Source: Candidatus Melainabacteria bacterium (GTDB taxonomy: Bacteria > Cyanobacteriota > Vampirovibrionia > Obscuribacterales > Obscuribacteraceae). From it: DNA of 64,000 bases. The stretch spans positions 62,001 to 126,000 of the forward strand of contig RXJR01000028.1 in the NCBI GenBank assembly GCA_003963305.1. Reading direction: 5' to 3'. Position numbers and translations under genes: made by a program. Below the pieces are notes generated by a model, which saw only the letters and a program-made list of their open reading frames with translations, had not been told where the DNA came from and searched no databases. This document shows, one piece after another, positions 27,262 to 48,343 of this stretch. Position 1 is the stretch's first letter. Each line of letters starts with the position of its first letter.

Positions 27262-27465
27262 TACCGGTGAGCACTGACTTAAATGTTCAGTACTTTGAGC
27301 CGAGGGGCAATGCGGAAACGTCAGGTCGGCGCCGACCAGAAACTGTAGCAACCAGCCCGATGCACGTGACGGACTGACTGAAGCGAGCATAAATACTGAG
27401 TCCTTCGAACGGACAGTCAGGCAGTATCTTAAAAGCCACCGCAAAGCGATTTGGGTGGCTTTTTT
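27262..27465 (+). ncRNA. Candidate structured non-coding RNA ending in an intrinsic terminator
   Basis: A TATACT box at 27249-27254 precedes about 200 nt of densely paired sequence: CGTCA (27319-27323) with TGACG (27367-27371) around the perfect palindrome hairpin at 27324-27337; CTGACTG (27374-27380) with CAGTCAG (27414-27420) enclosing GTCC/GGAC; and a competing ATACTG/CAGTAT pair. It ends at a strong terminator. No forward gene follows (the photolyase gene is convergent), so a riboswitch role is unlikely. I do not recognise the family; 6S, tmRNA, RNase P and SRP RNA signatures are absent. Confidence 0.4.
27431..27465 (+). terminator. Rho-independent terminator, probably bidirectional
   Basis: AAAAGCCACC (27431-27440) pairs with GGTGGCTTTT (27454-27463), followed by a T run to 27465. 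On the reverse strand the same stem is followed by TTTT, so it can also end the photolyase transcript whose stop lies about 15 bp away. Confidence 0.85.
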
Positions 27466-42630: not shown

Positions 42631-43053
42631 CTAGCTTTTGCCGCCGGTGAGAATTTCGAGAAAATCAGCCACGGGAATAATTTTTGTTCGGTGATACTCC
42701 CCGATTACCAGTAAGTCACCGTCGCCAGTAACAATGTAGTCCGCGTGTGACTGCAAAGCACAAGCAAGAAAGGCGTCATCATTGGGATCTCGGCTCACGG
42801 TTGGTAAACTACTGGGCTCTACGAGAATGCCTTGATCCTCGATAAGCGAAATGATGTTCGATATGTCGTCGGCTGTTATCCGTTTAGCCAATCTAGGCTT
42901 AGAGAGTGTGTTGCGAATTTCATCCAATAGCCAGTTGGGATAAATGACAGTAAATTCTCCCAGCGCGAATCGAGCAACTAACTCTCTCGATTTGCCACCA
43001 GCTACTAAAAGAGCACTAATCCAGATGTTCGAATCAACTACTACCTTGAGCAC
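42631..43053 (-). CDS. PIN-domain toxin (type II toxin-antitoxin)
   Basis: A 140-residue PIN-domain protein of the COG1569 kind: VVVDSNIWISALL (first acidic residue), a Glu in LLDEIRNTL, and SRDPNDDAFLACALQSHADYIVTGDGDLL with the remaining acidic residues. Such toxins cleave RNA, often tRNA or mRNA, in a metal-dependent way. GTG at 43053 lies inside the upstream antitoxin gene (20-bp overlap) and is translationally coupled. The pair is framed by a 55-bp direct repeat. Confidence 0.9.
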   Translation of the reverse strand: MLKVVVDSNIWISALLVAGGKSRELVARFALGEFTVIYPNWLLDEIRNTLSKPRLAKRITADDISNIISLIEDQGILVEPSSLPTVSRDPNDDAFLACALQSHADYIVTGDGDLLVIGEYHRTKIIPVADFLEILTGGKS

Positions 43054-43291
43054 GTTCTGCCTTCAATTCATTGCGGATTTCTTTCAATTCCGCAAATACT
43101 TGCTGCTCAGTTAGTGGTGGCAGATCCTTTCCCTGTCTATCGACTTTGGCGCAAAGTGCTCGCCACTTGTCACTCCAAGATTTTAGATCCAATTTTCTGT
43201 AAAGCTCTTCACGATCTGCAGGAGACAACTTATCGACCAACTGAATAAGTTGATCGACCGTAAATTGAGGTTTTGGTTTTCGTTGTACCAT
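43034..43291 (-). CDS. Putative antitoxin of the PIN toxin
   Basis: An 85-residue acidic/basic mixed, helical protein: an N-terminal FTVDQLIQLVDKLSPADREELYRKLDL segment seen in many small antitoxins, a middle helix, and the C-terminal QVFAELKEIRNELKAE helix that could thread into the PIN toxin. It precedes and overlaps the toxin gene, the usual antitoxin-first order. DNA binding is not obvious from sequence. ATG at 43291. Confidence 0.8.
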   Translation of the reverse strand: MVQRKPKPQFTVDQLIQLVDKLSPADREELYRKLDLKSWSDKWRALCAKVDRQGKDLPPLTEQQVFAELKEIRNELKAERAQGSS

Positions 43292-43840: not shown

Positions 43841-44245
43841 CTACAACTTTACGCTGCGAATGCTCTCTGCAAGTTCCCCTCGTGGATCAAAAATGATTTG
43901 TGCACCGTCTGCGATAATTTTTCCGGTGCTGCCTTGCAGCTGTTCCTGAGAAAGCCAATCCATATCGGTTATGCCGAATTCAACCTCTAGACCGGTTTGA
44001 AAAATTATCCGCCAACTTTTCACCAGACCCCAGTCTTCCAGTTCGGCTTTCTTAATTGCTCCAAAAACTTCTGCCCATCGGCAATTATCCACATACGCCA
44101 GTGGCTGCATGGAAATCAAGATCAAATCAACATCCGAATCAGGCTTCGCAGTCCCTCTGGCATAAGATCCGATTAAAAGCAGACCCAACAAATCCTGTCG
44201 CTGTCCACACCAGGTATTCAAAGACCGCAAGAACTCATCAAGCAC
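43841..44245 (-). CDS. Nucleotidyltransferase-domain protein (MNT-like)
   Basis: A 134-residue protein with the polymerase-beta-type nucleotidyltransferase signature LLLIGSYARGTAKPDSDVDLILIS: Gly-Ser, then Asp-x-Asp for metal binding; a third acidic residue is likely in VEFGITDMDWL. Such minimal nucleotidyltransferases are often antitoxins that AMPylate a HEPN toxin, but no HEPN gene is adjacent. It could also act on a small molecule. Start is GTG at 44245. Confidence 0.82.
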   Translation of the reverse strand: MLDEFLRSLNTWCGQRQDLLGLLLIGSYARGTAKPDSDVDLILISMQPLAYVDNCRWAEVFGAIKKAELEDWGLVKSWRIIFQTGLEVEFGITDMDWLSQEQLQGSTGKIIADGAQIIFDPRGELAESIRSVKL

Positions 44246-44365: not shown

Positions 44366-45292
44366 CTACTGAGGCACCTGCTCAAGAACCGGATCGGCAG
44401 TGATCAAGGTGCCATGCTCCTGCGGTGCCTTGAATCCATTTAGCAGCGCGTGCGGCTCGAAGCTGTTCAAAATCGCTATTTTATCGACGCCGCCTTGAAT
44501 TCCGCCCATACAGCTTTTGATCTTCGGCAACATGCCACCGCTAATGGTTCCTTCATCGATGCACTTCTGCGCATCTGAAACAGTCAAATGTCCAATTCGA
44601 GTCGAAGGATCTTTCAAGTCTTTCATAACACCAGGAACATCAGTGCAGAAGATCAATGCATCAGCCTGCAGATGCGTTGCCACAGCCAGAGCCGCATGAT
44701 CTGCGTTGATGTTGTAGTAATTGCCTTCCAGGTCGCGTCCGATTGGTGAAATGATTGGCACCCAACCTGCCCATAGCCAGCTCTCGAGACTTGCAGACTC
44801 GACACTGACAATTTCACCGACCCAGCCCAGATCGACTGGCTTGCCATCTTTGTCTTCCATCTGCATCTTCTTGGTGATGATCGGGTTAGCTGAATTCGAG
44901 CAGAAGCTCAGACTCTGAATGCCACGCTGCCGCAATTTTTCGGTCAGCATCTCATTGATAGTCATAAACGTCTTAACTGCAATCTCCAGCGTTTCAGAAT
45001 CAGTGACACGCAGTCCGTTGATTTTTTCGGTCTTCTTGCCGATCGCAGCCAGCGCATCGTTAACGGCAGTACCGCCACCGTGCACGACAATCACTTTCAC
45101 GCCCATCTTCAAAAGCTCGATCGTATCTTCTATCAACGAATCGAAAACCGCCTCGTTGCCTATAGAATTCCCGCCGAACTTGACGATTACTACCTTCCCA
45201 TCCATCGAATTGAGCATTTCTCTGTCACCTGAAGACTTAGACGCAAATAGCAAAGTTGAGCTTGTTGAACTTTTCAATGTAGATAACGTCAT
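44366..45292 (-). CDS. argB: Acetylglutamate kinase
   Basis: Phosphorylates N-acetylglutamate in arginine biosynthesis. Visible motifs: VVIVKFGGNSIGNEA (Lys and Gly loop), VIVVHGGGTAVNDAL, NADHAALAVATHL and SGGMLPKIKSCMGGIQGGVDKI. The 308-residue form starts at ATG 45292 after AGGGGT; an ATG at 45217 with AGGTGA 7 bp upstream would give 283 residues and remove a Ser/Thr-rich head that does not resemble the N-terminal arginine-sensing helix of related kinases. argC lies 237 bp upstream on the same strand, with a folded leader between. Confidence 0.95.
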   Translation of the reverse strand: MTLSTLKSSTSSTLLFASKSSGDREMLNSMDGKVVIVKFGGNSIGNEAVFDSLIEDTIELLKMGVKVIVVHGGGTAVNDALAAIGKKTEKINGLRVTDSETLEIAVKTFMTINEMLTEKLRQRGIQSLSFCSNSANPIITKKMQMEDKDGKPVDLGWVGEIVSVESASLESWLWAGWVPIISPIGRDLEGNYYNINADHAALAVATHLQADALIFCTDVPGVMKDLKDPSTRIGHLTVSDAQKCIDEGTISGGMLPKIKSCMGGIQGGVDKIAILNSFEPHALLNGFKAPQEHGTLITADPVLEQVPQ

Positions 45293-45314
45293 CTTGCACC
45301 CCTAGCTTACAAAT

Positions 45315-45398
45315 ATCCCCGAGTACATAAGGCGCTCGGGGATCGAAGAATTTGGATGGTGAACGGTCAATCAACACTACCAAAAGCTCCCCGAGCGC
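45315..45398 (-). promoter_or_regulatory. Three-segment mutually exclusive hairpin region in the argC-argB gap
   Basis: In transcript order (reverse strand), segment 1 (45398-45388, GCGCTCGGGGA), segment 2 (45342-45332, TCCCCGAGCGC) and segment 3 (45323-45315, CTCGGGGAT). Segment 2 pairs perfectly with segment 1 over 11 bp, or with segment 3 over 9 bp, but not both. This is the layout of an attenuator or switch. No T run follows segment 3, which ends about 20 nt before the argB ribosome site, so translational or processing control is more likely than simple termination. Confidence 0.5.
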
Positions 45399-45529
45399 AC
45401 GCGTCGTCGCAGAAGAGTTCGGTTGAAGTTGAGAGCGATAAGAGCCATATCTTTATATGTAGTGTTCGAGCCAACTTTTGCAGATTACAACCCACTTGGC
45501 AAATCTGTCAACAGAACGTTAAGTTGTGA

Positions 45530-46585
45530 TCAAGACGGAAAAGTAGGCAACTGGGTGATTCCGGTGGTCTCAGGCCAACCAAACAGGATGTTCATATTCT
45601 GTAGAGCTTGCCCAGCGGCGCCCTTGATCAAATTATCGATGGCGCCAACTGCAATGACTCGATCAGTACGTGCGTCCACGGTGACCCCAATATCACAGAA
45701 ATTGGAACCTTTTACCCAGCGAGTTTCAGGGAAGCGATATTCGCCTTTCGCCGAGTCGAAAAGCCTTATGAAAGGCTCCTTACTGTAAGCTGAGTTGTAA
45801 ATGTCAAACAACTCATCGTCTGACATTTCGCGATTGAGAATGGAATAGCTCGTGATCAAAATGCCTCGATGCATGGGCACCAGATGCGGTGTGAATGATA
45901 GCAGCACGGCTTCTTTGGCCTGCAGTGAAAGCTCCTGCTCAATCTCAGGCGTGTGCCGATGGCAGCCCACTTTGTAAGCCTTGATCGATTCATTGCACTC
46001 ATCAAAGTGCGTGCCGAGCGCCAGAGACCTTCCCGCACCGGAGACGCCCGATTTACCATCAATGATGATGGATTCAAGGTCAATAACGCCGGCCCGCAAT
46101 AGAGGCGTCAGGGTCAGAATGGAGCAAGTGGCATAACAGCCTGGATTTGCTACCAGGCGCGCTCCTTTGATTCTGTCGCGATTCAGCTCAGGAAGCCCAT
46201 AAACAGCTTCTTTGACAATGGATTTATTGGGATGCTTGTACTCGTACCATTGTTCATATTCTTTGGTATTTTGCAGTCGGAAATCAGCCCCGAGGTCGAT
46301 GACCGCGCATTTATCCAGCACTTTCTTCGTCACAGTCTTGGCTGCGATACCATGCGGCAAAGCCATGAAAATCACATCGACTTTGCCTGCCACTGATTCG
46401 ATATCCTCATCAGTGAGCGTCAAATCGGTCGACTTAGCCAGATTCGGATAGACGTCGGCAAGCTTCTTACCGGCACTGCTCTGCGAAACAGCTGTGTGTA
46501 GAGTAACTTTGTCGTGCTGGAGGATGAGTCGAATCAGCTCCTGTCCCGTATAGCCGGTAGCACCGACAACCGCAACCTTTTTCAT
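45530..46585 (-). CDS. argC: N-acetyl-gamma-glutamyl-phosphate reductase
   Basis: Reduces N-acetylglutamyl phosphate to the semialdehyde with NADPH, following ArgB. The 351-residue protein begins MKKVAVVGATGYTGQELIRL (Rossmann loop) and has VFMALPHGIA, the active-site NPGCYATCSILTLTPLL with catalytic Cys, GKSGVSGAGRSL, and the HRHTPEIEQEL histidine region. ATG at 46585 is one codon inside a TTG. A TPR-protein gene ends 23 bp upstream on the same strand; argB follows after 237 bp. Confidence 0.96.
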   Translation of the reverse strand: MKKVAVVGATGYTGQELIRLILQHDKVTLHTAVSQSSAGKKLADVYPNLAKSTDLTLTDEDIESVAGKVDVIFMALPHGIAAKTVTKKVLDKCAVIDLGADFRLQNTKEYEQWYEYKHPNKSIVKEAVYGLPELNRDRIKGARLVANPGCYATCSILTLTPLLRAGVIDLESIIIDGKSGVSGAGRSLALGTHFDECNESIKAYKVGCHRHTPEIEQELSLQAKEAVLLSFTPHLVPMHRGILITSYSILNREMSDDELFDIYNSAYSKEPFIRLFDSAKGEYRFPETRWVKGSNFCDIGVTVDARTDRVIAVGAIDNLIKGAAGQALQNMNILFGWPETTGITQLPTFPS

Positions 46586-46608
46586 CAATTTCGCCTATTT
46601 GCTGACGC

Positions 46609-48093
46609 TTACTCGTCCGGATTGAGTCGCATGACGTCCGGCAGTTCCAGAATCTTCCATGACCCGGTAATAGCCTGCTCACTATAGCTCAATTTAGACG
46701 GTGCTGTCGGCGCGGCCGTCGCTTTTTCAGGTTGCTTAACAGGTTCTTGCGTTGGCTTGACCGGTGCAACGGGCTTCTTCGCCGCCAGGATTTTTGCGTA
46801 ATTATCAAAAACCTTCTTCGTGTCGGGATGATCGGGACCGAGCATGCGCTTACGCATTTCCCAGCATCTGCGATAAACAGACTCTGCTTCCTGCAGCTTC
46901 ATCTGCTGGTGATAAATCATGGCGAAATTGTACAGAGCGCTGGCAGTCTCGGTGTGATCACCCAGACCCTTTTCGTAAATCTGAATGCAATCGCCCATCA
47001 ATGTCTCTGCCATCAAATAATTTTTCTGTTGATAATAGAGACGTGCCAATGTCGAAACACTCATCGCCACGAGCGGATGAAGCTGCCCAAGGACTTCGGT
47101 TTTCAAGCCAATACAACGTGTCATCAGTTGTTCGGCCTCTTCGTACTTCTTTATACGGCACAAAATGTCTGCAAGCGAGTCAAGGGCATACGCTAGTTTC
47201 TGCTTGTCGAGATTCTGGCTCTCAGCTTCCTGCAAAGCGGCGCGCCACTGTGTTTCCGCAACCTGCATCAACCCGCGGCGCAGGGCTTCTTCGGCGAATT
47301 CCTTATATACGAACCAGTTTATGGGATTTGGACCCGCCTGACCATTGGCATTAGGGGCAGATGGAGCGACGATTGGCGCCTTTTTTTCGACCGCCGGAGT
47401 AGTCTGAATGCCAGCCTTGTTTGAGCCGCCAGCCGAGGCTGAAGCCGTCCCCGCGGTCGGTAAATTAGTCTGAGATTGACTGGGTTGCTGCAAAGCGGGT
47501 TGCGAACCGGTCTGTGTGGCAGCCTGCTGCGGTGCGGTCGGTGCACCTGCTTGTCCATTCGGAGCTTTGGCTGCCGGCATATCCATTTTCGTCCGGTCCC
47601 ACTTGCCAGTGGAAAGCCCTTGTGCGCACACCTGCAAGTGACGGGCTTCGTCCTCTCTGTGGGTCTTCATGAGCAAATCGGCGTAACCTTCCAGCAAACG
47701 CATGACATCTGGATGGTTAGCCCCTAAAACCTTGGTCTTGATAGCGATAGATTGCTTGTAGAGCGGCTCAGCGTCCGCGTAGTTGTGGCTCATATGCAAC
47801 AGCATGGCGAGATTGCTCGACGTTATGCCGACGTCAATGTGGTCTGGTCCGTGGACGCGGCGATACAAACTTAGCAACCTGCGGCAAGTAGCCTCGGCAT
47901 CTTTGTTCTTGCCTTGACGAAAATACGCTTCCGATAAACCTTCGTAAGTCACAGCACGCCGGCTGTCGTTTTCCGGGAAATCTTCCGCTTCTTCGAGGGC
48001 AGCCAGCCACATCGATTCAGCCTCGCCGAGAGCCCCCCGCATCAGAGCTTGCTCACCGGAACTTTTGTACTTTTGCCAATTGTCGTTTGTCAT
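46609..48093 (-). CDS. TPR-repeat protein (kinesin-light-chain-like TPRs)
   Basis: From ATG 48093 (GGCGGA upstream) the protein is 494 residues. Two blocks of tetratricopeptide repeats of the TPR_10/12 type (SEAYFRQGKNKDAEATCRRLLSLYRRVHGPDHIDVGITSSNLAMLLHMS, and DILCRIKKYEEAEQLMTRCIGLKTEVLGQLHP) flank a Gln/Ala/Pro-rich linker. The H-P-D-V and G-P-D-H-P-D spacing is typical. It is a cytoplasmic scaffold of unknown partner. It lies just upstream of argC and may share its transcript. A start 20 codons earlier (48153) is open but unlikely. Confidence 0.85.
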   Translation of the reverse strand: MTNDNWQKYKSSGEQALMRGALGEAESMWLAALEEAEDFPENDSRRAVTYEGLSEAYFRQGKNKDAEATCRRLLSLYRRVHGPDHIDVGITSSNLAMLLHMSHNYADAEPLYKQSIAIKTKVLGANHPDVMRLLEGYADLLMKTHREDEARHLQVCAQGLSTGKWDRTKMDMPAAKAPNGQAGAPTAPQQAATQTGSQPALQQPSQSQTNLPTAGTASASAGGSNKAGIQTTPAVEKKAPIVAPSAPNANGQAGPNPINWFVYKEFAEEALRRGLMQVAETQWRAALQEAESQNLDKQKLAYALDSLADILCRIKKYEEAEQLMTRCIGLKTEVLGQLHPLVAMSVSTLARLYYQQKNYLMAETLMGDCIQIYEKGLGDHTETASALYNFAMIYHQQMKLQEAESVYRRCWEMRKRMLGPDHPDTKKVFDNYAKILAAKKPVAPVKPTQEPVKQPEKATAAPTAPSKLSYSEQAITGSWKILELPDVMRLNPDE

Positions 48094-48343
48094 GGATTCC
48101 GCCAGGGAAAAAACCACTTCGCATAATACTGCCTTACCCAATTTTACAGCCAATTGCTGCGTTTAGGATATAACCCCTTGACCATAAACTTTTGCTGCCG
48201 GTGATAGCCCCGCTAGCCAGACCAGACCCCGGCGAATTCGACGGACCAGAACAAGCGGAGATAGCGACCTACTTGAACCGGCTGAACCAGCTCAAGGCAC
48301 CGCAGCCTCCTGAGACCCGGACTATGGAAAGCACGAAAAACCT

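Follow-up and report, generated by a model that had tools for sequence, protein, structure and literature searches.

In the window, by which we mean the whole 64,000-nucleotide stretch of melainabacterial DNA analysed here, argC and argB lie on the minus strand and are separated by a gap of 237 bp (45293-45529). Does this gap hold an RNA switch that controls argB, and if so, what would such a switch sense? The original prediction, made from the sequence alone, described three segments in the gap that can pair in two mutually exclusive ways, and proposed that argB is controlled at the RNA level by arginine or another signal through these alternative structures. The segments and their coordinates were correct: segment 1 (45388-45398) pairs with segment 2 (45332-45342) over 11 of 11 bp, and 45335-45343 pairs with segment 3 (45315-45323) over 9 of 9 bp. 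The remark that no T run follows is also right for the window genome, in which the 9-bp stem is followed by ATTTGTAA. However, the description was incomplete, as it overlooked both the arginine-rich reading frame in which segment 1 lies and, further upstream, a promoter-like pair of boxes. The features are as follows:

45530..46588, minus strand: argC, N-acetyl-gamma-glutamyl-phosphate reductase, 5' of the leader (Pfam PF01118, PF22698, PF02774)
45506..45511, minus strand: candidate -35 box, TTGACA in the minus-strand reading, the same in three congeners
45484..45489, minus strand: candidate -10 box, TGTAAT, after a 16-nt spacer, the same in three congeners
45377..45448, minus strand: leader reading frame (ATG 45448, TAG 45377) of 23 codons and TAG, encoding MALIALNFNRTLLRRRVRSGSFW, with 5 Arg codons
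45401..45409, minus strand: tandem Arg codons CGA CGA CGC, beginning 11 nt before segment 1
45388..45398, minus strand: segment 1, 5' arm of the antiterminator, within the leader frame
45332..45342, minus strand: segment 2, 3' arm of the antiterminator and 5' arm of the terminator
45315..45323, minus strand: segment 3, 3' arm of the terminator
45307..45314, minus strand: weak U tract ATTTGTAA, 3' of the terminator stem, 4 T of 8
45299..45303, minus strand: Shine-Dalgarno-like AGGGG of argB, outside the 2:3 hairpin and about 12 nt beyond it
44366..45292, minus strand: argB, N-acetylglutamate kinase, the gene proposed to be under control (Pfam AA_kinase, PF00696)

Read along the minus strand, the order is thus argC stop codon, TTGACA, TGTAAT, Arg frame, segments 1, 2 and 3, ATTTGTAA, AGGGG and the ATG of argB. 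The name argC was assigned from its Pfam semialdehyde dehydrogenase domains and argB from its AA_kinase family, in both cases together with the neighbourhood, and the argB start at ATG 45292 agrees with the aligned congeners. A gene for a TPR-repeat protein (46609-48153, minus strand) ends about 20 bp 5' of argC on the same strand, so the two may be co-transcribed; argC in the window has no attenuator of its own. Directly 3' of argB, again on the same strand, lies a gene for a small nucleotidyltransferase-domain protein (43841-44245, minus strand, PF01909). The window also holds a gene for a PIN-domain protein (42631-43053, minus strand, PF13470), which is overlapped by a small upstream frame (43034-43291) with no Pfam match; the layout of this pair (42631-43291, minus strand) resembles that of a toxin-antitoxin system.

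The congeners, which are filed under Cyanobacteriota and Candidatus Melainabacteria, retain these parts. In G001 and G002 all three segments are identical to those of the window, the promoter-like boxes are kept, and so is the leader frame, which reads MTLTAFSFNRHTLRRRVRSGSFW and MTFSALNFNRHSFRRTKRSGKIWLC, each followed by a stop codon. Across the three congeners there are no differences in the 2:3 hairpin or in the first bases 3' of its stem. No clear strong Shine-Dalgarno sequence precedes the leader frame of the window. From the candidate promoter, transcription would be expected to start near 45477. A sigma-70 promoter scan of the window did not list the TTGACA/TGTAAT pair (45511-45484), because the scan requires an A at the second position of the -10 box and TGTAAT lacks it. 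The original prediction depended on segment 1 being transcribed; the candidate promoter pair lies upstream of segment 1 and not inside segments 1-2, so segment 1 would be in the transcript. The stretch that begins with the argC stop codon and includes the promoter-like pair (45484-45530, minus strand) is near-invariant in the three congeners, exceeding the end of argC in this respect, and holds an imperfect inverted repeat, CAGATT...AATCTG. Since the repressor ArgR is present in the window's genus, this block is possibly an operator.

Could the three segments have arisen by chance? None of 20,000 dinucleotide shuffles of the gap gave the overlapping three-segment layout, and any perfect 11-bp inverted repeat appeared in 74 of 20,000. 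For the leader as a whole, the fold energy is unremarkable (z -0.57), with 57 of 200 shuffles folding equally well or better.

Comparison with relatives shows that this arrangement is widespread in the family. A strong argC match is present in 25 family genomes (loci L066-L090); we surveyed, by position, the DNA that follows argC in each, and in 18 found an Arg-rich frame with the same segments and a hairpin after it. Among the other seven, G016 has its leader before argC, five (G064, G025, G013, G009 and G034) have only 27-34 bp after argC, and G035 has no leader in this stretch. Independently of any protein search, a DNA pattern for the hairpin matched in 9 of 289 genomes of the class, once in each and always in the gap after argC, and its reversed control gave 0 matches in every row. 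A first covariance model, built from 20 leaders and encoding the terminator helix 2:3 only, was searched against 50 family genomes. Its further matches precede argF, argG and argC, frequently in genomes with an argJ leader as well, and five additional argC leaders were read from these same loci. The resulting alignment of 46 leaders was made from sequence only and spans 24 genomes and 11 genera, with 15 leaders before argJ (x_G003 among them), 13 before argC, 13 before argF, 4 before argB and 1 before argG.

A second model, R2, gave 8 matches at E <= 3e-5 in the 50 family genomes outside its own building set. Seven of these are complete and precede argF (5), argG (1) and argC (1), all with a tandem-Arg frame; the eighth (L142), of the argF type, is truncated where its contig ends. 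This brings the complete leaders to 53, spread over 28 of the 50 family genomes and 11 of 24 genera, and every one of the 53 is followed by an arginine gene (argF 18, argJ 15, argC 14, argB 4, argG 2), named from the next reading frame and checked by Pfam for the window's argB and argC and for one argF. Several arg operons carry two attenuators, one before argC and one between argC and argJ (L077, L078, L076, L079, L069, L081, L071 and others). The G033 bin (L072, L096) has two copies of argC-argJ-argB, each with its own argC and argJ leader, which could be due to a strain mixture or to duplication. By the R2 search, argB is the sole gene with a detected leader in the window genome, and argF of the three congeners has no such leader.

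Several other matches were read and set aside. The next full-length R2 matches in the window's genus (G000:C11:22396 and G001:C14:474) have a 5S rRNA-like end and a terminator, and were rejected as leaders; we take them to be the end of a 5S rRNA gene with its terminator. The weak matches G006:C205, G034:C153 and G072:C146 are likewise 5S-like with a terminator, and the R2 match G001:C6:41599 and the weak family matches L139, L140, L143 and L145 did not read as leaders either. The leader counts also leave out the weak R2 matches G016:C201, G073:C354, G035:C206 and G069:C80.

In each of the 46 aligned leaders, a run of 2-5 tandem Arg codons within an open frame begins 11-27 nt before segment 1, although this count is not independent of discovery, because most leaders were found with models containing the region; the position-based count of 18 of 25 is less affected. 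The stop codon falls at -2 to +31 nt from the start of segment 1, and one frame (F_G061) is cut before its start codon by the contig end. A strict criterion of frame and geometry picked out 45 of the 46 leaders, compared with 1.7% of dinucleotide shuffles, and the seven later complete leaders, which lie outside model R2, have an RR-containing frame in every case (7/7). The Arg codons are mainly CGC (114 of 238) and CGA (76 of 238). Outside the Arg run the leader peptides share little, varying among genes and genera, and within groups they drift, with 120 non-synonymous against 55 synonymous codon differences. A codon-position test on the leader peptides gave little sign of selection beyond Arg. 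Such drift is what one would expect of a leader in which nothing matters but the control codons and the RNA.

The original prediction looked to compensatory changes in homologues, and these are present in both helices. In the 46 leaders, 90.4% of cells are paired in helix 1:2, with 48 two-sided cells in 6 of 11 pairs, and 93.7% in helix 2:3, with 46 two-sided cells in 6 of 10 pairs, where cells count sequences rather than events and are inflated by the relatedness of the sequences. For each helix, 0 of 500 shuffles reached the observed value for cells paired, two-sided cells or covariation score. The other two measures were reached more often: two-sided pairs in 24 of 500 shuffles for helix 1:2 and 20 of 500 for helix 2:3, and pair types in 49 and 170 of 500, respectively. 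Slid registers pair at most 55.8% (1:2) and 61.4% (2:3) of cells. With the first 20 leaders, helix 2:3 was already supported (0 of 500 shuffles on three measures), whereas helix 1:2 was above shuffles on no measure, because segment 1 is near-invariant among the argJ and argB leaders, and its compensatory changes were seen only once the argF and argC leaders were added. Since the search models encode helix 2:3 only, helix 1:2 was not imposed on the added leaders. In the seven later leaders the antiterminator has 6-11 pairs in 7 of 7, by best ungapped match, which is a weak test. Both mutually exclusive helices, antiterminator and terminator, are therefore conserved across the 46 leaders, and RNA-level control of argB is supported by the compensatory changes in homologues.

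Taken together, these data narrow the choice to a leader-peptide attenuator whose control codons encode Arg, as opposed to a metabolite-binding riboswitch. We consider it probable that a promoter and a ribosome-mediated transcription attenuator lie in the argC-argB gap, and that the attenuator gauges arginine by how far tRNA-Arg is charged. Sequence and comparison show which parts are present, how they are ordered and spaced, that both helices have compensatory changes and that the leaders sit before arg genes; from these we infer translation of the leader frame, stalling, termination and the sign of the response. In the proposed sequence of events, RNA polymerase would start near 45477 and a ribosome would begin the 23-codon leader frame. 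When arginyl-tRNA is scarce, the ribosome would stall at CGA CGA CGC and leave segment 1, just ahead, free to pair with segment 2 once that is made (the antiterminator); segment 3 would then stay unpaired and transcription would continue into argB. When arginyl-tRNA is ample, the ribosome would reach the stop codon and cover segment 1, so that 2:3 would form (the terminator) and transcription would end, at a T-rich tail in the relatives and at a weak tail here. Several observations weigh against this account: the leader frame of the window lacks a clear Shine-Dalgarno sequence, the promoter pair escaped the scan, the U tract of the genus is weak, the peptide gives little sign of selection beyond Arg, and the window genome has ArgR as well, with a detected leader at argB alone.

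We computed how a ribosome at different positions would affect the choice between the helices. With the transcript cut off after segment 2, helix 1:2 forms at least 6 pairs in 44 of 46 leaders when the ribosome sits on the first Arg codon, and in 46 of 46 when the best Arg codon is used instead. Without a ribosome the count is 26 of 46, and with a control ribosome placed 24 nt upstream it is 31 of 46; even a ribosome at the stop codon would still permit 1:2 in 16 of 46, and these counts speak against the model. In the window leader, the number of 1:2 pairs is 10.7 in free RNA; it is 9.7, 6.1 and 0.0 for a ribosome on Arg codons one, two and three, respectively, and 0.0 for one at the stop codon; a ribosome stalled at the third Arg codon would cover segment 1. 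Once segment 3 is present, 2:3 is favoured at equilibrium in most leaders and in all ribosome states. Helix 1:2 exceeds 2:3 in 2 of 46 leaders when free, 7 of 46 at the first Arg codon, 4 of 46 at the second and 0 of 46 at the stop codon, and never in the window leader. The choice between the helices must therefore be kinetic, an assumption also made for classical attenuators. Prediction on the first 20 leaders gave a protector hairpin (0:1) between Arg codons and segment 1, which is absent from the consensus of 46.

The terminator is where the window's genus departs from its relatives. In 43 of 46 aligned leaders, 6-8 of the 8 bases after the stem are T, whereas in the three leaders of the window's genus the tail is ATTTGTA[AT], with 4-5 T of 8, and a terminator scan of the window did not list the 2:3 hairpin. 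Termination at 2:3 may be weak or assisted in this genus, and for that reason we kept a different read-out as the main rival: the same peptide and helices would operate, but 2:3 would be no efficient intrinsic terminator, and Rho-dependent termination, RNA stability or argB translation would give the response. The three weak tails against the T-rich ones of the other 43 leaders speak for it, ArgR in the window's genus could relax the need for tight termination, and, according to the available text of PMC6386406, orf34 of Salmonella speF acts through Rho, sequestration of the ribosome-binding site and RNase G. Yet the hairpin and the first bases beyond it are identical in the three congeners, and the Shine-Dalgarno-like site of argB lies about 12 nt past the hairpin, outside 2:3. 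We regard this read-out as rather unlikely, and transcription attenuation at 2:3 as the better account.

The remaining alternatives concern what is sensed, or whether there is an RNA switch at all. In fungi, arginine can act on the ribosome translating a leader frame (the arginine attenuator peptide), and by this precedent the leader peptide could be an arrest peptide and respond, within the ribosome, to free arginine instead of uncharged tRNA. Known arrest peptides have a fixed core, however, while the peptides here share little but the Arg run and differ by gene and genus, which makes this reading very improbable. A metabolite-binding riboswitch without a sensor peptide was suggested by the argument, made in the original prediction, that expression platforms typically also have mutually exclusive helices. 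We give it hardly any credence: there is no Rfam match, the Arg frame is present in 46 of 46 leaders, and, the Arg run and the three segments apart, leaders of different genes vary so strongly that no aptamer-like core is seen. Searches with Rfam 15 gave 0 matches in the window leader at E <= 1 and 0 at the gathering score in 10 loci with leaders; the only Rfam match of the window is a poplar-1 RNA (RF03041) at 27294-27431 on the plus strand (129.8 bits against a gathering score of 110.5). For want of an Rfam match and of any conserved core besides the Arg run and the three segments, we rejected the riboswitch and T-box readings. Finally, the arms are near-palindromic, GC-rich boxes and the fold energy is ordinary, as might be seen if there were no RNA switch and the arms were either an operator made of protein-binding inverted repeats or a product of chance. 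Against this stand the failure of all 20,000 shuffles to give the layout, the compensatory changes in both helices, the Arg frames (46/46) and the T-rich tails (43/46), and such an origin seems extremely improbable. Attenuation through tRNA-Arg charging thus remains our preferred reading.

How does this compare with known systems? Like the trp, his, leu, ilv, thr and phe attenuators, these leaders have a short frame with tandem control codons, an antiterminator and a terminator that share a segment, and a biosynthetic gene 3'. They differ from the classical amino-acid attenuators in the proposed control by arginine and in their melainabacterial lineage, in being placed gene by gene over argC, argJ, argB, argF and argG, sometimes with two leaders in an operon, and in the protector hairpin, which was predicted on 20 leaders and not on 46. 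T-boxes bind tRNA directly and need no translation. The model proposed here shares with the T-box leaders of arginine genes (PMC1262725, from its available text) an RNA-level response to tRNA-Arg charging, but the melainabacterial leaders match no Rfam family. The available text of the same study of Actinobacteria from 2005 reports attenuators for his, thr and phe genes, T-boxes for tyr and arg genes in other species, and no conserved RNA structures before arginine operons in Actinobacteria.

Two further systems bear comparison. In ilvBNC of Corynebacterium glutamicum, as described in the available part of PMC11857589, terminator and antiterminator hairpins also overlap and the leader codons decide between them; that system differs in responding to branched-chain amino acids, in belonging to another phylum and in having an anti-antiterminator hairpin in the proposed model. 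In the Salmonella speF leader, to go by the available text of PMC6386406, orf34 also has two consecutive Arg codons, and pausing without arginine alters the folding of the leader, but the target is ornithine decarboxylase, and Rho, RBS sequestration and RNase G are involved. Unlike speF, the melainabacterial leaders precede arginine biosynthesis genes and have a conserved 2:3 hairpin with a T-rich tail. Membership in the orf34 family (DUF2618) was rejected, as by inspection the peptides lack the HIRRT..HIMM core and the downstream genes are those of arginine biosynthesis.

A survey from 2010 (PMC2965389) states, in its available text, that leader-peptide systems were previously known only from Proteobacteria and Actinobacteria, and adds Firmicutes. 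We found no description of an arginine leader-peptide attenuator of arginine biosynthesis genes in the open-access literature, of which partial texts were available, and this does not establish its absence from print; the available portions of PMC8632094 (on uORF motifs), PMC9239276 and PMC11668279 describe none. As far as this literature goes, the mechanism, leader-peptide attenuation, is already known, and the arginine specificity and the host lineage appear to be what is new.

Beyond the window, the distribution of ArgR (PF01316) bears on what the attenuators may be doing in the family. ArgR was detected in 8 of 50 family genomes (G000, G001, G002, G003, G009, G025, G034 and G064). Among the 25 genomes with a strong argC match, ArgR went undetected in 17, and all of these but G035 (16 genomes) carry one or more attenuators, up to several per genome. 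In the 8 of 25 with ArgR, G000-G003 have one detected attenuator each and the other four none. Because the genomes are related and many are incomplete, this pattern is a lead rather than a test.

We also searched R2 against 386 genomes of the phylum. Of the 56 with a match at E <= 0.01, G000 was the only family member and the only genome with a strong full-length match. Among the matches listed for the other 55, all start at model position 49 or later except the full-length ones in G424 and G487. The stretches in G424, G487 and G475 were read and none is an Arg leader; the remaining matches were judged solely by model coordinates, and weak leaders elsewhere in the phylum may be missed because stricter filters were used.

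Leader-peptide attenuation is textbook biology, but here it appears gene by gene over a whole pathway and in another lineage, mostly where ArgR is undetected. On balance, we lean slightly towards the view that in this melainabacterial branch of the cyanobacterial lineage arginine-specific, ribosome-mediated attenuation acts regulon-wide, on argC, argJ, argB, argF and argG singly, and largely stands in for ArgR. If this is true, these bacteria would offer a natural case for studying how control by RNA and by protein repressors can take each other's place, and the leaders would predict which genes of uncultured bacteria respond to arginine.
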